Positions 220 through 16,231 of a stretch of 31,229 bases of DNA are shown here, piece after piece; the first letter of the stretch is position 1, and each line of letters starts with the position of its first letter. Location: positions 1 through 31,229 of the IMG/VR virus record IMGVR_UViG_3300039159_000019; one strand, given 5' to 3'. The position numbers were made by a program, and so were the translations under genes. The notes beneath the pieces were generated by a model. It searched no databases. It was not told the DNA's origin and saw nothing but the letters and a program-made list of their open reading frames with translations. The DNA is from a virus.

Positions 220-578
220 TGGCCTATCCACCGATTACTCCATTGCCAACATCGCCTAGTAGGTCACAATCACCCGCCACATTTAGTGCTGATGCTGACG
301 CATTTCTTGGTGCATTGCCTGACTTTGGTTCAGACCAAAACGCATTGGCAGCTTATATTGAAGATTTGGCAATTGATGTAGAAGCAGCCGCTACAATTGG
401 CTCCGCAGCCATTGCTAATTTTAAAGGTATTTATAGCGCCGTAGTAACCTATCAAATAGGGCAGTCTGTTTTGTATAATAATTATTTTTGGTTAGCTTTA
501 ACTGTAAACATAGGCATAACACCTGTTAATGGCGCTAACTGGCAGAATGTGTCAATAATTGACGGTGGGACATTTTAA
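219..578 (+). CDS. Small tail protein with CBM5/12-like segment
   Basis: The product has 119 residues. The N-terminus, a Pro/Ser-rich stretch followed by 'SADADAFLGALPDF', matches a common opening of phage tail-fibre-associated proteins. Residues 70-112 have the pattern Y..G..V.YNN..W.A...N....P.....W, which resembles carbohydrate-binding module family 5/12. A similar segment (W-S-A-V-T-A-Y, then V-Y-Y and W-I-A-I) occurs near residues 27-66 of the preceding protein. The ATG overlaps the previous stop as TAATG, and the next gene starts on this gene's last base. It is likely a tail-tip or fibre-attachment component that may bind surface glycans. The fold assignment is by pattern only. Confidence 0.75.
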   Translation: MAYPPITPLPTSPSRSQSPATFSADADAFLGALPDFGSDQNALAAYIEDLAIDVEAAATIGSAAIANFKGIYSAVVTYQIGQSVLYNNYFWLALTVNIGITPVNGANWQNVSIIDGGTF

Positions 579-2050
579 TGGCAAACACTATTTTAGTAAA
601 GCGTGGCTTAGAAGCTAACCGCACAACAGTAACTCCCAACGCGGGTGAGATTCTTTACACAACAGACACAAAACAAGTGTTTATTGGAGATGGCGCAACT
701 TCTGGCGGTAATGCTGTTGGTGTTTCTCAAGTCAAATATCCACAAAACATTCAATCTGCCAACTACACGCTAGTTTTAGATGATGCTGGTAAGCAGATAT
801 TCCACCCTGCCGCAGATACGTCAACTCGCGTATACACCATCCCTTCAAACGCCAGTGTTGCCTTCCCTATTGGCACAGTGGTTTTGTTCACGGTTGAAAA
901 TAGTGCCCGTAACGTAGCCGTTGCAATTAACAGCGATACTTTGATAAATGGTAGTGGATTAACAGGGGCAATTACAGTCCCCGCAAACAACACGCTTGAG
1001 TGTATAAAAGTTACTTCATCAAAGTGGATGGCTAATTTTTTATATCCAGCAAATAGTGTGCAGCCATATCAAATAGCAGTAGCGCACACCACATCACCAT
1101 TCGTATCTGCATACCCGTGGAGCGGCTCTGGTTTTGGCACTAAATACGCCAATCCGGCAACGGTACCTACAACCACTGGCCGAGGCGTAGCGTTTTCACC
1201 ATCTGGCGATGCTATAGCCGTAGCGCACGATGGGCCACCAAATGTTTCCGCGTATCCGTGGAGCGGCTCTGGTTTTGGCACTAAATACGCCGACCCAGCC
1301 ACACTACCTACAGGTAGTGGCTTAGGCGTGGCGTTTTCACCATCTGGCGATGCTATTGCTGTAGCGCACGTTGTGTCACCCTTCGTGTCTGCGTATCCGT
1401 GGAGCGGTTCTGGTTTTGGGGTTAAATACGCCAACCCAGCTACACTACCTACAGGCGTTGGCAATGGCGTAGCGTTTTCACCCGCTGGCGATGCTATAGC
1501 CGTAGCGCACAATACAACACCAAGTGTTTCCGCTTATCCGTGGAGCGGTTCTGGTTTTGGGGTTAAATACGCCAACCCAGCTACACTGCCTGTAGGAATT
1601 GGCTATGGCGTAGCGTTTTCACCTGCTGGCGATGCTATTGCTGTAGCGCACTCCACAACACCTTTTATATCCGCGTATCCGTGGAGCGGTTCTGGCTTTG
1701 GAACTAAATACGCCAATCCGGCAACCCTACCTACATTTAATGGCAACGGCGTAGCATTCTCACCTGCTGGCGATGCTATTGCTGTAGCGTCACCTCTCGT
1801 ATCTGCATACCCGTGGAGCGGCTCTGGTTTTGGAACTAAATACGCCAACCCGGCAACCCTACCTACAGGTACTGCCTTTGGCGCAGCGTTTTCACCATCT
1901 GGCGATGCTATTGCTGTAGCGCACTCTACAGCCCCTTTTATAACAGTTTACGTGTGGAGCGGTGCTGGCTTTGGAAATAAATACCAAGTCGATCCAGCCA
2001 CCCTACCTACAGGTACTGGCAACGGCGTAGCCTTTAACTTTACCCCATAA
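578..2050 (+). CDS. Tail fibre: Mtd-like N-terminal domain plus seven-blade beta-propeller repeats
   Basis: The product has 490 residues. Residues 1-47 ('KRGLEANRTTVTPNAGEILY', then 'VFIGDG') match the N-terminal attachment domain of major-tropism-determinant-type phage fibres. A beta-rich linker follows to about residue 165. The rest is seven tandem repeats of about 47 residues built on AYPWSGSGFG, KYANPATLP, GVAFSPSGDA and IAVAH, a WD40-like pattern. Seven copies fit one closed seven-bladed propeller. Variation is concentrated at two short positions per repeat, as expected for exposed loops of a receptor-binding face. This is probably the host-recognition protein. Start is ATG overlapping the previous stop. 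Confidence 0.85.
   Translation: MANTILVKRGLEANRTTVTPNAGEILYTTDTKQVFIGDGATSGGNAVGVSQVKYPQNIQSANYTLVLDDAGKQIFHPAADTSTRVYTIPSNASVAFPIGTVVLFTVENSARNVAVAINSDTLINGSGLTGAITVPANNTLECIKVTSSKWMANFLYPANSVQPYQIAVAHTTSPFVSAYPWSGSGFGTKYANPATVPTTTGRGVAFSPSGDAIAVAHDGPPNVSAYPWSGSGFGTKYADPATLPTGSGLGVAFSPSGDAIAVAHVVSPFVSAYPWSGSGFGVKYANPATLPTGVGNGVAFSPAGDAIAVAHNTTPSVSAYPWSGSGFGVKYANPATLPVGIGYGVAFSPAGDAIAVAHSTTPFISAYPWSGSGFGTKYANPATLPTFNGNGVAFSPAGDAIAVASPLVSAYPWSGSGFGTKYANPATLPTGTAFGAAFSPSGDAIAVAHSTAPFITVYVWSGAGFGNKYQVDPATLPTGTGNGVAFNFTP
1073..2047 (+). repeat. Seven tandem 141-bp repeats encoding propeller blades
   Basis: Copies 1-5 are 47 codons each. Copy 6 is 44 codons because three residues are missing in its first variable loop. 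Copy 7 is a diverged 46-codon end copy (VYVWSGAGFG). Nucleotide identity between copies is very high in the core segments and low in two short windows, roughly blade residues 6-10 and 33-38. Such an array could change copy number by recombination. Confidence 0.9.
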
Positions 2051-5736: not shown

Positions 5737-6044
5737 GTGCTTTGCTCCTGTAGTGCTGCTATCTCGCCAGACGCTTGCGCTAGTGCATCCTTGTGGCTGT
5801 TGATTTCATGCGTAAGGCGCTCGACATCTGCGCGAAGGCGGGTTAACTCGTCGGCGGTGTCAGGCGTTCGCGTGCTCCATAGGTCCACAACTTTTGCTTT
5901 ACTCGGTAGTTGCGGTGTCTTGAAATGACACTGGCAACATTCAACCCAATGGCGTCGGCGCGAAGCATCAAAGTGACGCATCTTCACATCGGGGCTGCCA
6001 CACCACGGCACAGGGCAATTCTTGAGCGTAGGTGCATCAGTCAT
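5733..6044 (-). CDS. Lar-like zinc-finger protein with coiled-coil tail
   Basis: The product has 103 residues. Residues 9-60 contain C-P-V-P-W-C and, 21 residues on, CCQC, then K-A-K-V-V-D-L-W-S-T-R. This matches the Lar restriction-alleviation family pattern of two Cys pairs followed by A...W..R. The last 40 residues are a heptad-like helix (LTRLRADVERLTHEINSH). Lar-like proteins in phages are thought to modulate host restriction or bind nucleic acid; activity here is unproven. The start ATG overlaps the stop of the Ala-rich gene by ATGA. Confidence 0.7.
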   Translation of the reverse strand: MTDAPTLKNCPVPWCGSPDVKMRHFDASRRRHWVECCQCHFKTPQLPSKAKVVDLWSTRTPDTADELTRLRADVERLTHEINSHKDALAQASGEIAALQEQST

Positions 6045-6799
6045 ACAGACTCACTTATAAGTGTTAAAAGTAGGTCGCGTTGTCTGCGTCGGGCAGCAGC
6101 AGCAGCAGCATCAGCAGCACAAAAAGCATCAACAGCAGCATCAGCAGCAGCAGCACAAGAAGTAGCAGCAGCAGCAGCAGCAGCAGCAGCATCAGCAGCA
6201 CAAGAAGTAGCAGCATCAGCAGCACAAGAAGTAGCAGCAGCAGCAGCATCAGCGGCATAAGCAGCAGCATCAGCGGCATAAGCAGCAGCACGAGCAGCAT
6301 AATCAGCATAAGCAGCATAAGCAGCAGCAGCAGCACGAGCAGCATAAGCGCCAGCATAAGCAGCAGCATCAGCATCAGCGGCATTACGTGACCGTATTTC
6401 GCCATTAGCGAGCAGGTCTATGCCTGCAATCACAGGATCGATAACGGCCTGAATTTCCGGCTCTTGCTTTGGCAATGAACGCAATTCAGCGGCAAGAAAC
6501 TGCCAGTGTATTTTGGATAGGTCCTTACCGTCTCGTCCAACGGCTGCGGGTAAGGCTGCAAAAAACGCTTTAGCGTCTGTCGCAGGAAGTGCTTCAAATA
6601 TATCTTCCGCAATACGCAAAAGATGTGGCGTCAAGCCAAACTTTTCAACAGCAAACATTGGTTCGTCCAAATGTGACAAGCAGCCGATAAAGCATCCGTG
6701 TGAACCATTCCAGTATTTACCTTGGATAAGCTCATCAGCGGCTATGTGTTGTGCGACTTGCGTCTGTAGCAGGTCGAAGTTTTTTGTTAGGGTGGTCAT
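6041..6799 (-). CDS. Ala-rich repeat protein with conserved N-terminal domain
   Basis: The product has 252 residues. Residues 20-130 form a conserved domain ('GKYWNGSHGCFIGCLSHLDE', 'FGLTPHLLRIAEDIFEALP', 'DLSKIHWQFLAAEL'). I recognise it from uncharacterised phage and bacterial proteins that likewise end in long alanine-rich repeats. Residues 140-235 are about two thirds Ala, punctuated by Tyr, Asp, Arg and the repeated unit ATSCAADA with four Cys. A basic/hydrophobic end follows (RRRQRDLLLTLISESV). The tail should form a long helix. Function is unknown. The ATG overlaps the upstream stop by ATGA. Confidence 0.75.
   Translation of the reverse strand: MTTLTKNFDLLQTQVAQHIAADELIQGKYWNGSHGCFIGCLSHLDEPMFAVEKFGLTPHLLRIAEDIFEALPATDAKAFFAALPAAVGRDGKDLSKIHWQFLAAELRSLPKQEPEIQAVIDPVIAGIDLLANGEIRSRNAADADAAAYAGAYAARAAAAAYAAYADYAARAAAYAADAAAYAADAAAAATSCAADAATSCAADAAAAAAAAATSCAAAADAAVDAFCAADAAAAAARRRQRDLLLTLISESV
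6095..6382 (-). repeat. Trinucleotide-rich low-complexity tract (GCN codons)
   Basis: On the plus strand the tract reads as runs of GCA/CAG interrupted by CAT, CAC, TAA and AAG triplets. It encodes the alanine-rich tail of the minus-strand gene. Because the period is three, open frames also appear on both strands (a Ser-rich one on plus, a Leu-rich one on minus), but these are artefacts of the repeat. Replication slippage could change its length without shifting frame. Confidence 0.85.
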
Positions 6800-8198: not shown

Positions 8199-8585
8199 CT
8201 AAAAAGGACACTCACTATCAAGGTCTTGGTTATTATCCCAAGATGTATGCTCGCCCTTTGATGGGTTTACGGACGCATCTAATGGCCTTGGCTCACCCCT
8301 AGCTCCGCCTGTATCAATGCTACCAACGCGCACATTAAATTGCGGCTTACCCTCGTATTCGTCATGCGTCAGTTCGCCAGAGATAAATACTTTTGTGCCT
8401 TTGTTTATGCTGCCGGAAAACGCTTCCGCTGCTTTGCCCCATAAGCTACACCGATACCAAACGCTTGCGGCATCTCGCCCAAATCCGTTTTTTACGCCAA
8501 CATTAAAGCTAAGGACTTGGGTATCTCGCACTGTGCGAAGTTCCGCATCTTTGCCTACGTTACCTGATATTGTGATATTTTGCAT
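8199..8585 (-). CDS. ssb: Single-stranded DNA-binding protein
   Basis: The product has 128 residues. The OB-fold pattern is clear: 'ITISGNVGKDAELRTV', a central 'VWYRCSLWGKAAEAF', and 'GTKVFISGELTHDEYEGKPQ'. The extreme C-terminus DLDSECPF is the acidic tip with final Pro-Phe that SSB uses to dock partner proteins. It coats ssDNA during phage replication and recombination, in line with ERF and exonuclease upstream in the same operon. AGGAGC precedes the ATG. Confidence 0.93.
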   Translation of the reverse strand: MQNITISGNVGKDAELRTVRDTQVLSFNVGVKNGFGRDAASVWYRCSLWGKAAEAFSGSINKGTKVFISGELTHDEYEGKPQFNVRVGSIDTGGARGEPRPLDASVNPSKGEHTSWDNNQDLDSECPF

Positions 8586-8596
8586 TGTGGTTGCTC

Positions 8597-8830
8597 CTAA
8601 AGACCAAGTGCGGTCATGTATGTATCGAGGATAGCTTGGTATTCGGCGCGGTCATTTGCCTCCATTGCGCGAAGGCGAATAACTGCACGAACTATTTTAA
8701 CATCATAGCCATGCGATTTTGCTTCGTTATAAACGTCGCGGGCGTCGTCCTGGATGCCTTTCTTTTCTTCGTTCAATCGCTCAATGCGCTCAATCAAAAG
8801 ACGTAGTTGTTCGCTGTGTGGTTCACTCAT
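8597..8830 (-). CDS. GapR-like DUF2312 DNA-binding protein
   Basis: The product has 77 residues from the ATG at 8830. It is a full-length match to the DUF2312/GapR pattern: 'QLRLLIERIERLNEEKKGIQ', then ARDVYNEAKSHGYDVKI..AVIRLR and a final helix. In alphaproteobacteria GapR is a small nucleoid protein that binds overtwisted AT-rich DNA ahead of replication and transcription. The phage copy may manage supercoiling of its own genome. A GTG at 8839 also opens the frame, but it lies inside the GGAGTG ribosome site, so ATG is preferred. It overlaps ninB by 8 bases. Confidence 0.88.
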   Translation of the reverse strand: MSEPHSEQLRLLIERIERLNEEKKGIQDDARDVYNEAKSHGYDVKIVRAVIRLRAMEANDRAEYQAILDTYMTALGL

Positions 8831-9203
8831 ATTTTTCACTCCATTTTACGTTGTTTTTTGCGCCGTATTCATAAATAAATTCAATCAAGTCCGACATTTG
8901 CCCTACGCTTAGCTTTGATGTTCTAAAACCTATCGGAAAGGGCTGATTATCCAACCCCATCTCAAATTTTGTTTCGTGGCCCAGTGCTGCCATAAAAATA
9001 GCTTTCCAAACTTCAGGTATGTGCAATCTGCCATCGGGCTTTGCACGGCTTATATCTGATAGCATTGCCCACATCTTTGCGTTTTGATCATCCGTGCGCT
9101 TGGCTGCACTGATCGATATAACTGCATCGACAGGGGCCTTATCGATCAGTTGCTTTGCCAATATCCGCTGTTGCTCACCTCGCAAGATAACTGTTTGCGT
9201 CAT
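8823..9203 (-). CDS. ninB: NinB-like recombination protein
   Basis: The product has 126 residues. It carries the NinB hallmarks: R-T-D-D-Q-N-A-K-M-W-A-M-L near residue 40, E-V-W-K-A-I-F, 'FRTSKLSVGQMSDLIEFIYE', and a final WSEKYE. In lambda, NinB (Orf) is a recombination mediator that works with SSB and can replace RecFOR. Here it is encoded with ssb, an ERF annealing protein and an exonuclease. It overlaps the next upstream gene by 4 bases. Confidence 0.88.
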   Translation of the reverse strand: MTQTVILRGEQQRILAKQLIDKAPVDAVISISAAKRTDDQNAKMWAMLSDISRAKPDGRLHIPEVWKAIFMAALGHETKFEMGLDNQPFPIGFRTSKLSVGQMSDLIEFIYEYGAKNNVKWSEKYE

Positions 9204-9547
9204 AAACCTAACTCGCGCTTTTTTGCAGCTATTTCAGCAGCCTTGGGACTAGCCTTGGCAAACGCTTCAGCTAGTTCCATTGGGTCAATATTGTAGTTAG
9301 CCCAGAACGTGATTTCGCCTTTACTGTGTTGCCGCTGGTGACAGTCTTTGCAAAGGCTTACGGTAAACCAGTCATGCGCTTTTTGCCCCATGCCAGCCCC
9401 GCTACCGTTGCGAACGTGAGCAACTTCGATAGCCATAGTGCTATTGCATACAGAGCAAGCGTGCTCTCTAACAAAGTTGCAATGCGCTGGCGACCTCCAC
9501 CTACTTTCGCGCTTTGGTTTTTTGGGTATTTTGCGCGGTAGCATCAT
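9200..9547 (-). CDS. DUF968-type HNH protein
   Basis: The product has 115 residues from the ATG at 9547. A TTG start at 9568 would add seven residues, but the ATG overlaps the upstream stop by ATGA, the pattern used throughout this operon. The core has C-S-V-C, A-H-V-R, W-F-T-V-S-L-C, C-H-Q-R-Q-H and F-W, matching the zinc-bound HNH fold of DUF968 proteins in nin-type recombination regions. A basic N-terminus (PRKIPKKPKRESRWR) could bind DNA. It is likely a nuclease involved in recombination intermediates, inferred from family and neighbours. Confidence 0.8.
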   Translation of the reverse strand: MMLPRKIPKKPKRESRWRSPAHCNFVREHACSVCNSTMAIEVAHVRNGSGAGMGQKAHDWFTVSLCKDCHQRQHSKGEITFWANYNIDPMELAEAFAKASPKAAEIAAKKRELGL

Positions 9548-9858
9548 TGGATTAAACTCGATTGCCAAATGATAATATGGCTTCCGTGCATTGATGGCCG
9601 TCTCGACCGCATGGTTTCAAACTCAACCATAATCCCATTCTTGCTGGCTGTCCTGGCAATGTGCCCCCAGGCGCTTTTGTTTGTTGGCGGGTGAACGTGT
9701 GTGGCCTTTATACGCACATCCTCTGTAGTAAAAAACCTATTGCGCTGCGCGTGCTCTACATAGGCTTGATAAGCTATTGCTTTCCATTCTTGCCCTTGCT
9801 TATCAGCGGACAGTTTAGCTAGCCTTAACCCTTCCTCTAATCCCGTCGATTGCTGCAA
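9544..9858 (-). CDS. Hypothetical winged-helix-like protein in recombination operon
   Basis: The product is about 104 residues if translation starts at the TTG at 9858. An ATG at 9924 would give 126 residues but overlap the exonuclease gene by 110 bases. The conserved part is 'EWKAIAYQAYVEHAQRNRFF', then T-T-E-D-V and A-W-G-H-I-A-R-T-A, resembling a winged-helix domain common in phage nin-like regions. The start is uncertain because no good ribosome site precedes either option. Function is unknown. Confidence 0.65.
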   Translation of the reverse strand: MQQSTGLEEGLRLAKLSADKQGQEWKAIAYQAYVEHAQRNRFFTTEDVRIKATHVHPPTNKSAWGHIARTASKNGIMVEFETMRSRRPSMHGSHIIIWQSSLIQ

Positions 9859-10456
9859 GGTCGGCTTCGACTTCGGCAAGAAATTCGCAAACAGATTGCT
9901 CAAGTTCCAAGATTTTTTTGTCATCGCGTTGCATCCTTTTGATAAACAGTTTCAAGTCTTCAGGAAAGTCTGGATTATAGCAAACGTAGTCAACCCATTG
10001 GCGCTCTGGCATACAAGCAAGCTGCCAGTTCATCTGAGTAATGTATTCAAGCGGTATCTCGCCTGTTGTTAGCGTTTCAAGGTGCCCCGCTGGCTGGCGG
10101 CACTTAATCTCGACTAGTCCATCATCTCCAACAAGACCATCGGGTGAACAATGCGTCCAAGGGATGCTCGAATGCCTGACCAACCCAGTTTCGTTAACCG
10201 GTACGTTTTGGTCAAAGCTATAAGCTATCCGTGCCTCAGCCTCAGTATCGATGCCATGCTGCATAGCTGCACTTGTAAAACTCGCTGTCTGTTTACCAGT
10301 TAGACGCTCCAACATTAGTTTTAAGCGTAGGTTGGCTCTAGTGGCGCTGTAGCCGCTTTTAGTGCGAGATAACGCTCCAGCAACCTGTGACGCACCCAGC
10401 GATCCGCATCGGGCGCTAAACCATTCTGCTGATCTTTGCTCGACATCAATTCGCAT
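9815..10456 (-). CDS. YqaJ-type recombination exonuclease
   Basis: The product has 213 residues. Motifs of the lambda-exonuclease/YqaJ fold are in order: R-S-A-E-W-F at 8-13, G-A-S at 21-23, M-x-x-G-x-x-x-E near 65-73, S-P-D-G at 104-107, V-E-I-K-C near 115-119 and Q-M-N-W-Q-L at 141-146. The Asp of SPDG and the Glu and Lys of EIK form the metal site. It would resect dsDNA 5' to 3' and hand ssDNA to the ERF protein encoded just upstream. It overlaps that gene by 11 bases. Confidence 0.92.
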   Translation of the reverse strand: MRIDVEQRSAEWFSARCGSLGASQVAGALSRTKSGYSATRANLRLKLMLERLTGKQTASFTSAAMQHGIDTEAEARIAYSFDQNVPVNETGLVRHSSIPWTHCSPDGLVGDDGLVEIKCRQPAGHLETLTTGEIPLEYITQMNWQLACMPERQWVDYVCYNPDFPEDLKLFIKRMQRDDKKILELEQSVCEFLAEVEADLAAIDGIRGRVKAS

Positions 10457-11024
10457 TCTGCACCTTCTTTTCCAATGCTATTTTGGCAGTCTCAAATGTG
10501 TTAGCTGGTAGCATAGCAATAGCTGGCACTTTATAATATGCCGCCATGACAGCAACGTCAGTGCCCGTGCGGTCGATAAGGTCTTGCAAGATAGCAAACT
10601 GCGCTGCTGTAATTGTTTGTGCTGGTGCTGGTGGAGCTTGTTGAGCCTTCACTGCTGCGTTGCCGTCATCATCTTCAGTTGGTAAACCAAAGCAAGTAAC
10701 TAGCGCATAACGCCGAGCATAAGTTAGGGCCGAACCGTAACCATGCGCGTCATGCTTATTGGCTGGCACAAACAAAACGCCCATAGGCAGTTTATCGCCG
10801 CTTTCATGTATCAGGACAGTTTCAATTGCTATGCCTCCTTCGCTGGGCCTTGGCATCTGCATAAATGCTAAGCCATGCTTTGCAAGGTGTGGTTTGATAG
10901 CCTCAATCACTGCTGGCAAATCTGCGTATTTAGATTTAAAATGCGGATTGTTAGCAGTCTTGGTGGCTGCTTCCAATTCGGCAAATGCTGCAACATACGC
11001 AGCGCATATTTTATCATCACTCAT
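10446..11024 (-). CDS. erf: ERF-family single-strand annealing protein
   Basis: The product has 192 residues. Signature segments are 'NPHFKSKYADLPAVIEAI' (26-), 'HGYGSALTYARRYAL' (94-108) and GLPTEDDDGN (113-122), all diagnostic for the ERF superfamily. A Pro/Ala linker then joins a C-terminal domain of about 50 residues. ERF proteins anneal complementary ssDNA. With YqaJ exonuclease, SSB and NinB it forms a complete phage recombination system. Ribosome site AAGGAGC precedes the ATG and overlaps the previous stop. Confidence 0.93.
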   Translation of the reverse strand: MSDDKICAAYVAAFAELEAATKTANNPHFKSKYADLPAVIEAIKPHLAKHGLAFMQMPRPSEGGIAIETVLIHESGDKLPMGVLFVPANKHDAHGYGSALTYARRYALVTCFGLPTEDDDGNAAVKAQQAPPAPAQTITAAQFAILQDLIDRTGTDVAVMAAYYKVPAIAMLPANTFETAKIALEKKVQNAN

Positions 11025-11339: not shown

Positions 11340-11552
11340 ATGACATTGAGCCATAAAGCCGTTATGCGTATCTACGGACGCGCTGCCGAACACAAAATAA
11401 CTGCTGGGAAGCTTGCTACCGCTGCTGGCATTAGCCGTGTAACATTAAGCAATTGGAAGCGTGAGCGCAGCACCCCAATGCTGGAAGCGTTTTTGGCGGT
11501 AGAGCAAGCTTTAGATAAGTTGATTGCAGATAAGGCTAAGGACGCTGTTTAA
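11340..11552 (+). CDS. Cro/CI-like XRE helix-turn-helix regulator
   Basis: The product has 70 residues. Residues 20-42 (ITAGKLATAAGISRVTLSNW) are a clear XRE-type helix-turn-helix, followed by a helical end (EAFLAVEQALDKLI). There is no C-terminal oligomerisation or protease domain, so it is Cro-sized, not a lambda-CI-type repressor. It lies directly downstream of the palindromic operator and promoter, which it probably autoregulates. AAAGGAC precedes the ATG. Confidence 0.82.
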   Translation: MTLSHKAVMRIYGRAAEHKITAGKLATAAGISRVTLSNWKRERSTPMLEAFLAVEQALDKLIADKAKDAV

Positions 11553-11923: not shown

Positions 11924-11962
11924 GGGCCAGCAAGAGAAAGAGCACCAAAATCTCGCTGGCCC
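11924..11962 (+). promoter_or_regulatory. Stem-loop upstream of leader peptide and initiator gene
   Basis: GGGCCAGC (11924-11931) pairs with GCTGGCCC (11955-11962). Inside it GAGA (11934-11937) pairs with TCTC (11951-11954) after a two-base bulge, leaving a 13-base loop. No U-tract follows. An AGAGGAGGAGC ribosome site follows 10 bases later. It belongs with the other leader stem-loops in this genome or acts as an mRNA stabiliser. Confidence 0.55.
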
Positions 11963-11989: not shown

Positions 11990-12040
11990 ATGAGTGATTA
12001 TATACGCCACAGAACCATTGTGCAAGGTGGTTTGTTGTGA
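11990..12040 (+). CDS. 16-residue leader peptide coupled to the initiator gene
   Basis: The short frame reads MSDYIRHRTIVQGGLL. It has the strongest ribosome site in the area (AGAGGAGGAGC), and its stop overlaps the GTG start of the next gene as GTGA. The initiator frame has no earlier usable start, so ribosomes finishing this peptide could reinitiate there. I infer translational coupling; no function of the peptide itself is evident. Confidence 0.5.
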   Translation: MSDYIRHRTIVQGGLL

Positions 12041-12768
12041 GCCGCCACAGCTTTGACCCAGAGGTCGCTAAGCGCGTTGGTGTCAATGCCGCTGTGATAT
12101 TCCAAAACATCCTTTGGTGGGCAGAAAAGAACGCTGCCAATGACAGGCATCACCATGAAGGGCGCTATTGGACATACAACAGCATAACAGCATTCGAAGC
12201 TTTATTTGATTACCTGACTGTTAAGCAAATCCGCACAGCTTTAGATAAGCTTGAAGCTGATGGATTGCTTATGACAGGCAATTTTAACACTTCGGCATAT
12301 GACAGAACAAAATGGTATTCTCCGATTTGCCCTAACGGCATTTCCCATTTGCCCGAAAAGGCAAATCAATTTGCCCAAAATGGCGAACCTATACCAGATA
12401 GTAAACCAGTTATTAAACCAGTTATTAAACAATATATAGGCGATATGCCCTTTTGGATGCCTTTGGAGGCTTGGCAGGATTGGGTAGATATGCGGAAGAT
12501 AAAGAAGAAACCGCTGACAGCCAGAGCAACCACAAAGGCAATTAACAAGCTTGATGTTATGCGCCAAGCTGGCCAGGACATCGCAGCAGTATTAGACCGC
12601 AGCACATTGAACTGCTGGGCAGACATTTATGAGATAAAGGAACAGACCAATGGCAAACCAAATAGCAAACACACAACAGAGCCAACTAACCCAATGGTCA
12701 GAGCCGTTCTTGCCAGCCGAGCTAGGCGCGCTGCTGGAGAGCGACCACCTGCTGACGATTGGGCCTAA
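12037..12768 (+). CDS. Replication initiator-like protein (lambda O-like layout)
   Basis: The product has 243 residues with a GTG start preceded by AAGGTGG. Residues 1-95 look like a winged-helix replication protein N-terminus ('VNAAVIFQNILWWAEKNAAN', 'YLTVKQIRTALDKLEADGLL'). A variable linker (100-135) contains KPVIKPVIK. Residues 138-205 ('MPLEAWQDWVDMRKIKKKPL', ALDR-like helix, CWADIYEI) match a C-terminal module seen in phage replication proteins. The DNA of the linker holds iterons, as the lambda O gene holds the lambda origin. It probably binds those sites and starts replication. Confidence 0.75.
   Translation: MSRHSFDPEVAKRVGVNAAVIFQNILWWAEKNAANDRHHHEGRYWTYNSITAFEALFDYLTVKQIRTALDKLEADGLLMTGNFNTSAYDRTKWYSPICPNGISHLPEKANQFAQNGEPIPDSKPVIKPVIKQYIGDMPFWMPLEAWQDWVDMRKIKKKPLTARATTKAINKLDVMRQAGQDIAAVLDRSTLNCWADIYEIKEQTNGKPNSKHTTEPTNPMVRAVLASRARRAAGERPPADDWA
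12325..12440 (+). other. Candidate replication origin: three 22-bp iterons, 12-bp repeats and AT-rich stretch
   Basis: ATTTGCCC occurs at 12325, 12347 and 12369, exactly 22 bases apart, each followed 4-5 bases later by GGC. The middle unit is a perfect inverted repeat (ATTTGCC, 6 bases, GGCAAAT). Next come two tandem copies of AAACCAGTTATT (12403-12426) and an AT-rich run to about 12438. The 22-base period places each copy in a different codon phase of the gene, so the repetition is conserved as DNA, not as protein. Confidence 0.65.
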
Positions 12769-13186
12769 GACAGCAGAAATGTTGCAACAGTATGTGGACG
12801 CCCTCAAGCCGCCAATGCCTGAGCGCGAACATGTGGAGGTTATGATTGCCAAGCTATCACTAGCCACTGCCACACCTAAGCGCAGCGTCGACGAAGAAGC
12901 AGAGCGTTTGGAACTATACTGGATGACCCTTCGGATATATCCGTTGTCCGATTTACGCAGCGCATTTATCAAGCTGCTACGCACTTGCAAGTTTATGCCA
13001 ACGACAGCCGAAATTGATTCGGTGGTGCAAGAGGAGGGCTACGAAAGGCGACGTATGATAGGCAGAGCAAAGTATTTGATACAGATTCACAAGCGCGATT
13101 ATGTGCTGCCAGTTGAATATGTGACAGCGCAGGAATTGGCAGATTTGCGTGCTGAAATAACAAATATCGGAATAAATGCAAAATAA
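12650..13186 (+). CDS. Replication-associated protein, possible helicase loader
   Basis: The product has 178 residues. It overlaps the initiator gene by 119 bases, yet the ATG at 12650 has a good AAAGGAA site 7 bases upstream. The segment 'VEVMIAKLSLATATPKRSVD' followed by 'LELYWMTLRIYPLSDLRSAF' and K-F-M-P-T-T-A-E-I-D is a conserved module in replication operons of alphaproteobacterial phages. Its place directly after an O-like initiator suggests a lambda-P-like loader, since no helicase gene is present. If the overlap is not real, the next start would be the ATG at 12779. Confidence 0.7.
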   Translation: MANQIANTQQSQLTQWSEPFLPAELGALLESDHLLTIGPKTAEMLQQYVDALKPPMPEREHVEVMIAKLSLATATPKRSVDEEAERLELYWMTLRIYPLSDLRSAFIKLLRTCKFMPTTAEIDSVVQEEGYERRRMIGRAKYLIQIHKRDYVLPVEYVTAQELADLRAEITNIGINAK

Positions 13187-13781: not shown

Positions 13782-14036
13782 ATGATCACCCCAACCTTAA
13801 ACATAAACGGGTCCAGCGCGGTTGACCTTATTGAGCCACGCCTTAAAGCAATGGGCTACCTAAGCGACGCAATACATGCCCTATGTCAAGTTACGCCTAA
13901 CGGTAGAGACTACAGCGATAGCGAGAAATGCACTGCCGACCGTAAAAAACACTATGACCGGATTGAAGCTATTGATGATATTTGTAATGCAATTATGAAA
14001 GAAGCATTGGCAATCCAGCAACAAGAAAGAGCATAA
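13782..14036 (+). CDS. Small hypothetical protein
   Basis: The product has 84 residues and is mainly helical, with 'DLIEPRLKAMGYLSDAIHAL' and a second half around 'HYDRIEAIDDICNAIMKEAL'. It starts one base after the preceding stop, and its own stop overlaps the next ATG (TAATG). No family is recognised. It lies in the replication block between an uncharacterised protein and the DnaA-domain protein. Confidence 0.7.
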   Translation: MITPTLNINGSSAVDLIEPRLKAMGYLSDAIHALCQVTPNGRDYSDSEKCTADRKKHYDRIEAIDDICNAIMKEALAIQQQERA

Positions 14037-14287
14037 TGACGCCAAGAGAAAAGAATTTAACTATCATTAGTTACATTGCATCCCAAGGAGGCTTTACAAT
14101 AGATGACATTTTAGGCCGTCGCAAGTTTCCAGATTTGGTAGCAGTGCGTAGAAATTGCGTTATGGCATTTCGGAATATGGGTTATAGCACGCTTCAAATA
14201 GGGCGCATTATGAACCGCGACCATTCGACTATCGTGCACGCAATACAGCAACACGCAAAGCGAGAGGCAGCAAATGACAAGCAGTAA
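14036..14287 (+). CDS. Stand-alone DnaA domain IV-like DNA-binding protein
   Basis: The product has 83 residues. Residues 37-70 carry the DnaA C-terminal signature: R-R, M-G-Y-S, Q-I-G-R and, above all, R-D-H-S-T-I-V-H-A (61-69). In DnaA this motif reads the DnaA box. The rest of DnaA (AAA+ and N-terminal domains) is absent; the N-terminal 35 residues are a short helical lead-in. It could bind DnaA boxes on phage or host DNA and act as a competitor or cofactor of initiation. This is inferred from the motif. Confidence 0.85.
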   Translation: MTPREKNLTIISYIASQGGFTIDDILGRRKFPDLVAVRRNCVMAFRNMGYSTLQIGRIMNRDHSTIVHAIQQHAKREAANDKQ

Positions 14288-14852: not shown

Positions 14853-15017
14853 TTGGCAAAGAACGGACTATACGCAAACATCGCAGCCAAACGTAAGCGC
14901 ATAAAGGCTGGCTCAGGTGAGCGCATGAACAAACCTGGCGGCAAAGACGCGCCTAGTGCTGGTGATTTTAAGGCAGCGGCTAAGACAGCCAAAAAGCCCA
15001 AGGCAAAAATGAAATGA
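14853..15017 (+). CDS. Small basic conserved phage protein (KRKRIKAGSGERM type)
   Basis: The product has 54 residues from a TTG start with AAAGGA 7 bases upstream. The sequence 'GLYANIAAKRKRIKAGSGER' followed by M-N-K-P-G-G-K-D-A-P-S-A matches a short, very basic protein found in many phages and plasmids (ANI.AKRKRI..GSGE.M.KPG..GAP). It probably binds nucleic acid, but its function has not been established as far as I know. Its stop overlaps the methyltransferase ATG as ATGA. Confidence 0.78.
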   Translation: MAKNGLYANIAAKRKRIKAGSGERMNKPGGKDAPSAGDFKAAAKTAKKPKAKMK

Positions 15018-16231
15018 CAATTCCAACTATTGTGCAGTGCAAGGTTGCTGACTTAATTCCATACGCATCTAACAGCAGAACGCACAGTGATGCTCAGGTT
15101 GCACAGATAGCCGCAAGCATCCGTGAATTCGGCTGGACAAACCCCATTCTTATTGATGGGGAGAATAGCATTATAGCAGGACATGGACGTCTATTGGCGG
15201 CGCGTAAGTTGGGTATGCAAGAAGTGCCAGCAATCATTCTAGACCATCTCAGCAAGGCTCAGCAACGCGCTCTAGTAATAGCTGACAACCAGCTTGCCTT
15301 AAACGCAGGGTGGAACATGGATATGCTCAAAGCTGAAATTGAAGACCTAGGGCTAGATGACTTTGACATATCGCTGCTGGGCTTTGACGATGATTTTCTT
15401 GATGGCCTGTTGGAGCCAGAGCCCACAGATGGGCTAACAGACGAAGATGCTGTGCCAGATGTTCCAGAAGTGCCAAAGTCTGTTTTGGGTGACGTTTGGG
15501 TGTTGGGTAAGCACAGGTTGATGTGCGGCGACTCAACCAGCATCGATGCGGTTGATAAGCTGATGGATGGGCAGAAGGCGCAATCCGTCTTGACTGACCC
15601 GCCATACAATCAAGAGACAGAGGGTGGATTTAAGGGAAATATCGGAAAATCACTAAGAAAACAATCTAATGACATTGAAAGTATGTGCAATTTTCAGGTT
15701 GGGCCATTCTTGCAAGTTTTACCTACTGTTTACGAAAAAGGAAAAATGAACGCTACGGTCTTTTGTAATAAAGACCTAGTGCCAAACTACTTGCAATGGG
15801 CGCGAGACTTTGGCTATTCCTTTAACATTTTGGTGTGGAAAAAGCCTTCAGCAATCCCTTTGGGCGGAAGTTATATGCCGGATGTTGAGTATTGCCTAGT
15901 TTTTCGCAAATCTGGTATTTTCAACACTAAAGTTGAAGGCGTAAGCTATTCTAAGGTGTTAATCCATAACAGGGAAACAGGACTGCATCCAACAATGAAG
16001 CCGGTTGATATGCTGGCTAATCAAGTTTTGATTGTTTCCCATGCGGGTGGCATAGTCTTAGACCTATTCGGCGGCAGCGGCTCAACCTTGATTGCCTGCG
16101 AAAAGACAAGCCGTGACTGCCGTATGATGGAACTCGATCCCAAATATTGCGACGTCATCATAACGCGCTGGCAGGATTTTACAGGCCAGCAAGCGGTTCA
16201 CGCAGAGACAGGGGAAGCCTTTGATGGCTGA
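15014..16231 (+). CDS. ParB-like domain fused to DNA adenine methyltransferase
   Basis: The product has 405 residues. Residues 8-130 are a ParB/sulfiredoxin-like domain ('SNSRTHSDAQVAQIAASIRE', G-H-G-R at 56-59). The C-terminal part is a beta-class methyltransferase: catalytic DPPY at 195-198, then H-P-T-M-K-P at 325-330, and the AdoMet loop LDLFGGSGST at 349-358. DPPY points to N6-adenine methylation. The gene lies just before terminase. Likely roles are protection from restriction or marking DNA for packaging. The target sequence cannot be read from the protein. Confidence 0.9.
   Translation: MTIPTIVQCKVADLIPYASNSRTHSDAQVAQIAASIREFGWTNPILIDGENSIIAGHGRLLAARKLGMQEVPAIILDHLSKAQQRALVIADNQLALNAGWNMDMLKAEIEDLGLDDFDISLLGFDDDFLDGLLEPEPTDGLTDEDAVPDVPEVPKSVLGDVWVLGKHRLMCGDSTSIDAVDKLMDGQKAQSVLTDPPYNQETEGGFKGNIGKSLRKQSNDIESMCNFQVGPFLQVLPTVYEKGKMNATVFCNKDLVPNYLQWARDFGYSFNILVWKKPSAIPLGGSYMPDVEYCLVFRKSGIFNTKVEGVSYSKVLIHNRETGLHPTMKPVDMLANQVLIVSHAGGIVLDLFGGSGSTLIACEKTSRDCRMMELDPKYCDVIITRWQDFTGQQAVHAETGEAFDG

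Follow-up and report, generated by a model that had tools for sequence, protein, structure and literature searches.

Why should the gene for a phage replication initiator carry, within its own coding sequence, an array of palindromic units whose spacing takes no account of the reading frame? The question is raised by IMG/VR virus record IMGVR_UViG_3300039159_000019, of which positions 1 to 31,229 (31,229 nucleotides; the window) were analysed and for which a first-pass annotation had proposed a lambda-type origin. Taken as a whole, the evidence is very probably best explained by an intragenic iteron-type theta replication origin that would be bound, unwound and used through its own initiator. 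By its affinities it is best read as an intragenic iteron origin of RepA_N-like type, carried by a phage and combined with a lambda-like unwinding element that is AT-rich.

The initiator gene and its predicted domains

The open reading frame that contains the array matches PHROG 11233 ('replication initiation protein', E 8e-39) and PHROG 678 ('replication initiation O-like', E 8e-27). Pfam gave no match to it even at E<=10, NCBIfam gave none, and neither the protein nor two profiles had a credible match in PDB sequence searches. An AlphaFold2 model built from 28 relatives divides the protein into two predicted domains and a linker:

12037-12768, plus strand: replication initiator gene, putative host of the origin; 243 aa, GTG start (PHROG profile matches)
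12058-12324, plus strand: N-terminal winged-helix domain, residues 8-96 (AlphaFold2 model, block pLDDT 67-95)
12220-12258, plus strand: predicted recognition helix, residues 62-74 (AlphaFold2 model, column scans, held-out checks)
12223-12225 and 12232-12234, plus strand: codons of K63 and R66, both in the predicted recognition helix, which track the iteron core
12334-12438, plus strand: predicted disordered linker, residues 100-134 (pLDDT < 50)
12448-12765, plus strand: C-terminal helical domain (helices 143-155, 162-177, 182-191 and 219-232 in the AlphaFold2 model; swaps among relatives)

The linker-coding DNA takes in the greater part of the iteron array and the AT-rich element described below. 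The original suggestion that the array lies between the initiator's two domains thus agrees with the model, in which the predicted linker spans the array with the winged-helix domain on its N-terminal side and the helical domain on its C-terminal side. Since the array and the AT-rich element overlap the low-confidence residues 100-134, the putative origin DNA sits where the protein appears least constrained.

Helicase or helicase-loader genes are found 3' of the initiator in several relatives. In the window, a 178-aa ORF (12650-13186, plus strand) shares 119 bases with the 3' end of the initiator gene and has marginal matches only in phage records and weak PHROG matches; by its position it might be a helicase-loader analogue, although the reading as a lambda P-like loader, considered from gene order, was rejected for want of profile support. 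Further 3', an 83-aa ORF (14036-14287, plus strand) corresponds to DnaA DNA-binding domain IV alone (PF08299, E 5e-11; phrog_27829), and the region 15014-16231 (plus strand) encodes a ParB N-terminal domain fused to an N6/N4 DNA methylase. A leftward SSB, YqaJ-like and ERF recombination module occupies 8199-11024 (minus strand), and an inverted repeat, GGGCCAGCAAGA / TCTCGCTGGCCC (11924-11962, 92% complementary), lies just 5' of the initiator gene. Elsewhere in the window, a 490-aa ORF with ~141-bp tandem repeats (578-2050, plus strand; AVAH..SAYPWSGSGFG..) possibly encodes a tail-associated repeat protein, and a low-complexity Ala-rich ORF (6041-6799, minus strand) contains long AAAD/AAAT repeat runs.

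A frame-independent array of 22-bp units

Direct reading bears out the copies of ATTTGCCC first annotated at 12325, 12347 and 12369. Continued through GGC, this sequence forms three 18-bp dyad units at exact 22-bp steps (12326, 12348, 12370):

12326-12343, plus strand: iteron 1, TTTGCCCTAACGGCATTT (direct reading, repeat family D4, lag-22 analysis)
12348-12365, plus strand: iteron 2, TTTGCCCGAAAAGGCAAA, a perfect dyad (direct reading, repeat family D4, dyad test)
12370-12387, plus strand: iteron 3, TTTGCCCAAAATGGCGAA (direct reading, repeat family D4, dyad test)

The middle unit is, as had been noticed, a perfect inverted repeat, ATTTGCC (12347-12353) / GGCAAAT (12360-12366). The three copies also occupy three codon phases, with offsets of 289, 311 and 333 from the GTG at 12037, and the translation across them reads ...PICPNGISHLPEKANQFAQNGEPIP... 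The best lag score is significant against codon shuffles of the initiator gene (p = 0.005, all lags 14-39), and when the whole window was scanned the array scored 18 at lag 22, with 11 for the runner-up segment. Dyad symmetry of the window's own array, measured against a position-permuted unit control, gave p = 0.06, above 0.05.

Stray iterons elsewhere in the window, with <=2 mismatches, occur at chance level (41 versus 38 expected). Cumulative GC skew, proposed as a check, does switch near 11 kb, but gene orientation changes there as well, and the skew was therefore set aside as an indication of the origin. The DnaA box TTATNCACA is absent from the window, which neither supports nor excludes involvement of host DnaA, and Rfam and tRNA searches returned no matches.

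Selection on the DNA and the AT-rich element

The first-pass annotation had argued that selection must act on the DNA. Comparison of the window initiator with 11 close relatives, using synonymous-codon identity at conserved residues, confirms this. At the amino-acid level the N-domain (0.71) and the C-domain (0.66) are more alike than the iterons (0.52) and the AT element (0.57), and synonymous-codon identity follows the opposite trend, with 0.53 and 0.54 for the two domains, 0.83 for the iterons and 0.94 for the AT element. Both of these segments are thus under selection at the DNA level.

The AT-rich DNA begins immediately after the third iteron:

12388-12437, plus strand: AT-rich element, probable unwinding element; starts CCTATACCAGATAGTAAACCAG, with 12-mers at 12392, 12404 and 12416 (codon conservation)

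Two perfect copies of the 12-mer AACCAGTTATTA (12404-12415 and 12416-12427) follow the iterons as annotated, with AT-rich DNA continuing to about 12437, and an imperfect copy (9/12) precedes them at 12392-12403. The window's own element (CCTATACCAGATAGTAAACC...) is a variant of a conserved 25-mer, CCTATACCAGATATAAACACAGATA. Scanning all IMG/VR viral contigs for the exact 25-mer, with no protein information, recovered 43 stretches, and in 43/43 the match lies in frame in an initiator gene of the window's type (2 of these are truncated ahead of the N-domain). Over the 150 bp that precede the 25-mer on its upstream side, lag 22 is the best lag in 43/43 stretches (tied in one), compared with 3% of 860 random control segments from the same contigs.

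When the peptide PIPDINTD was sought irrespective of codon use, 85 stretches were listed; 83 of them were read back, and 75 encode initiators by their winged-helix signature. Out of 4608 possible codings for this peptide, a single one is used by 63/75 initiators (46/56 distinct proteins). Truncated cases have the identical predominant coding, and most of the remaining matches use other codons. Isoleucine is encoded by ATA at 46/59 positions in the AT element versus 169/473 elsewhere in the same genes.

These data bear on the possibility that constraint on the protein, such as a repeated linker peptide, or chance produced the repeats. A linker peptide ending in GEPIPD is recognisable in many relatives and the length of the 12-mer is divisible by three, as such an account would have it. 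However, each 22-bp step shifts the reading frame, and the iteron copies code for different residues, in a linker that is predicted to be disordered. Amino-acid identity in the linker is lower and synonymous identity higher, so that the explanation is contradicted by the synonymous-site result, and the predominance of one coding out of 4608 also speaks against it. It is exceedingly improbable.

Distribution of the 22-bp layout among relatives

Relatives were gathered from viral contigs, bacterial genomes, phage records and plasmids. Across 46 initiators the mean z per lag is by far highest at 22 bp (9.2), followed by 44 (3.9), 12 (3.5), 45 (3.1), 23 (2.6) and 24 (2.3), with the rest near zero. 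The single best lag is 22 in 22/46 initiators, 44 or 45 in 8/46, and 12, the period of the AT element, in 9/46. The expectation that related phages carry periodic repeats therefore holds for most of them, but a minority (for example L026, L029, L059 and L074) have no clear 22-bp array. Judged from these comparisons, the 22-bp layout appears to be a rule of the whole family across phages of several phyla, strong although not absolute. Among the hosts that the phage records name are Vibrio, Pseudoalteromonas, Flavobacterium, Bacteroides, Burkholderia, Erwinia, Listeria and Staphylococcus, and the relatives in culture include Pseudoalteromonas phage H6/1 and Flavobacterium elemo phages. No description of the family-wide layout was found in the searched literature, a scope outside which most subscription journals fall.

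The iteron arms vary by lineage (e.g. TTTGCCC, TTTCACC, TTNAGCC, TTGTGCA and TTTGTCA), and AAA or GAA stands at the centre of most units across lineages with differing arms. Dyad symmetry exceeds the within-unit position-permuted control at p<=0.05 in 30/38 arrays. Higher-copy arrays often show a 23-bp step or a 45-bp period (22+23 or 21+24), and these longer steps may serve to restore the reading frame in the larger arrays.

Predicted recognition-helix residues covary with the iteron core

Every N-domain column was scanned for whether a shared residue goes with a shared iteron core, using arms that were partly hand-read, with automatic arms run in parallel. Residues 63 and 66, three residues apart and both within the predicted recognition helix, are the top two columns at <80% identity with hand-read and automatic arms alike, and in an enlarged set at <80% identity they reach family-wise p values of 0.0002 and 0.0007, respectively. 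Of the lineages that combine K63 with R66, 9/9 have the core GCC, against 2/28 of the others (Fisher 4e-7); at <65% identity the figures are 6/6 and 2/24. The window itself pairs K63/R66 with GCC arms, whereas L095 pairs N63/Q66 with AGCC arms and L019 pairs R63/E66 with CACC arms. Family-wise significance is lost at <55% identity, so that shared descent is not fully excluded as a source of the covariation, and in a small independent set of 8 residue 63 ranks only second and is not significant after correction. Held-out initiators with clear arrays agree: L154 and L176 combine K/R with GCC, L143 combines N/Q with AGCC, and L157 combines R/E with CAC. Two further held-out K/R cases (L153 and L163) were left out of the judgement for their poor automatic registers.

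Conservation at the DNA level and covariation of helix and site require only that a protein binds here. The array could therefore be an autoregulatory operator through which the initiator, or another repressor, limits transcription of its own gene, with the true origin elsewhere. Such an operator would, however, lie some 290 bp 3' of the start codon. The array is also often joined to a codon-conserved AT-rich element, which is the layout of known intragenic origins such as those of lambda (PMC7466680), SPP1 oriL (PMC6316719) and pSK41 (PMC5703833). The operator is accordingly considered unlikely, and an intragenic origin remains the preferred reading.

Exchange of modules and a proposed mechanism

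Comparisons among relatives reveal exchanges of both the N-terminal and the C-terminal part. First, the gene at 2650-3459 of L009 is a natural chimera in which an HTH_36 N-domain (PF13730, E 2.5e-12) and its own, different repeats (CACGTTCAC at 17- and 22-bp steps) are joined to the C-terminal part of L002-L005, with 93% identity to L002. Second, six relatives (L007, L091, L096, L100, L108 and L114) have an unrelated C-terminus but keep the N-domain and TTTGCCC-type arms. The same kind of domain swap has been published for plasmid pPR9 (PMC5703833), and in PLE satellites the origin and N-domain are co-swapped (PMC8263062); both thus resemble the window family in having exchangeable domains with a co-swapped origin.

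Further DNA-binding proteins are encoded nearby, among them a small HTH protein at 11340-11552, and this protein or a host factor could in principle be what binds the array. The arm sequence, however, tracks the initiator's own predicted recognition helix, and the N-domain and array stay together through exchange of the C-terminal domain. Binding by another factor is thus very unlikely.

A mechanism for the initiator-bound origin can be proposed from these features. The N-terminal winged-helix domain of the initiator would bind the three A-tract-centred dyads, whose 22-bp spacing, about two helical turns, would align the sites along roughly the same face of the double helix. Once occupied, the array may strain and open the adjoining AT-rich 12-mers. 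The C-terminal domain presumably recruits the replication machinery, by way of a helicase loader or helicase, and this putative recruiting domain is exchangeable downstream of the AT element. Because the site DNA lies inside the gene of its own binder, helix and sites would be inherited as one specificity module.

Relationship to known initiators

The closest known initiators are those of RepA_N plasmids (pSK41 and pTZ2162 RepA, pLS32 RepN) and PLE RepA, whose winged-helix N-domains may resemble that predicted for the window initiator. A fold search gave 4pql, 4pt7 and 5kbj as the best PDB matches, with 4pta lower (probability about 1.0, TM 0.57 on target, Foldseek E 0.04). The entries 4pql and 5kbj are RepA_N plasmid initiators. 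4PTA and 4PT7 are staphylococcal RepA structures (PMC7145576). In sequence comparison, a profile-profile hhalign run against RepA_N gave a weak match (E 1.8e-4, probability 49%), the single-sequence version was not significant, and the RepA_N profile PF06970 did not match the window initiator at E<=10 while it matched the positive control, pLS32 RepN, at 8e-14. A second intended control, pWCFS103, was of no use, as no RepA_N was found in the plasmid.

Iteron anatomy points the same way. Most characterised RepA_N iterons hold inverted repeats that converge on a poly-A tract (PMC7145576), and the window family likewise has semi-palindromic, A-tract-converging iterons, here in the gene and compared with those of pLS32. 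RepN of pLS32 has five intragenic A-tract-centred iterons, measured here at spacings of 33, 24, 23 and 23 bp. In pSK41, too, the binding boxes lie in rep between the N- and C-domains, where the linker is dispensable (PMC5703833). RepA_N C-domains vary with the host and contact its replication machinery, and C-domain swaps are seen among the window relatives. The initiator gene of Streptococcus thermophilus phage CHPC879 (L140, 792-1658) is of RepA_N type and has a near-perfect 45-bp intragenic repeat array.

There are also differences. The RepA_N genes that were read have periods of 23-24, 45 or 54 bp, whereas the window family has mostly 22 bp. Replicons of the pLS32 type are described without an AT-rich region (PMC4490491), in contrast to the codon-conserved AT-rich 12-mer element of the window family. 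Unlike RepA_N systems, the window family spans phages that infect Gram-negative bacteria and Firmicutes alike.

The proposed lambda-type origin stands as a matter of design, and no evidence of kinship with lambda O was found. Like the putative origin of the window, ori-lambda lies in the middle of the initiator gene with an adjacent AT-rich region, and its four ~19-bp iterons, imperfect inverted repeats with an A-tract, resemble the window units (PMC7466680). Iterons in the initiator's own gene, between two domains and followed by an AT-rich element, are thus features of both; fold and iteron anatomy are nearest to RepA_N. The lambda O structure is absent among the 50 fold matches listed, the lambda O Pfam family (Phage_rep_O) is unmatched, and the 'O-like' name of PHROG 678 is an annotation label. 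A similar arrangement is found in SPP1, where gp38, the initiator, binds to direct repeats that lie in its own gene 38 (oriL) beside an AT-rich unwinding element (PMC6316719), although SPP1, unlike the reading proposed for the window, also possesses a second origin at a distance of about 13 kb. By analogy, lambda O and SPP1 gp38 may be regarded as functional parallels. Given the missing RepA_N profile match, the mostly 22-bp period and the AT element, the window origin is called RepA_N-like for its fold and iterons and lambda-like for its AT-rich element.

Implications for phage replication

It is on balance probable that these loci represent one widely spread phage origin class that can be read from sequence: a winged-helix initiator, a frame-independent 22-bp lattice, an AT-rich motif that is strongly conserved and a pair of recognition-helix residues that set the iteron core would together form a readable, exchangeable replication-compatibility code. 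The array and AT element provide a clean example of DNA-level selection superimposed on all three frames of a coding sequence. With dozens of initiators and their iterons built on a single scaffold, and two residues going with the core, the family amounts to a natural experiment in protein-DNA specificity. If the reading is correct, the origins of many uncultured phages, whose initiator genes are often annotated merely as hypothetical or replication proteins, could be located from DNA alone, including by the 25-base marker. It would also connect RepA_N plasmids and satellites with the initiators of phages from both Gram-negative and Gram-positive hosts, and replication compatibility among co-infecting phages, prophages and satellites would become testable.
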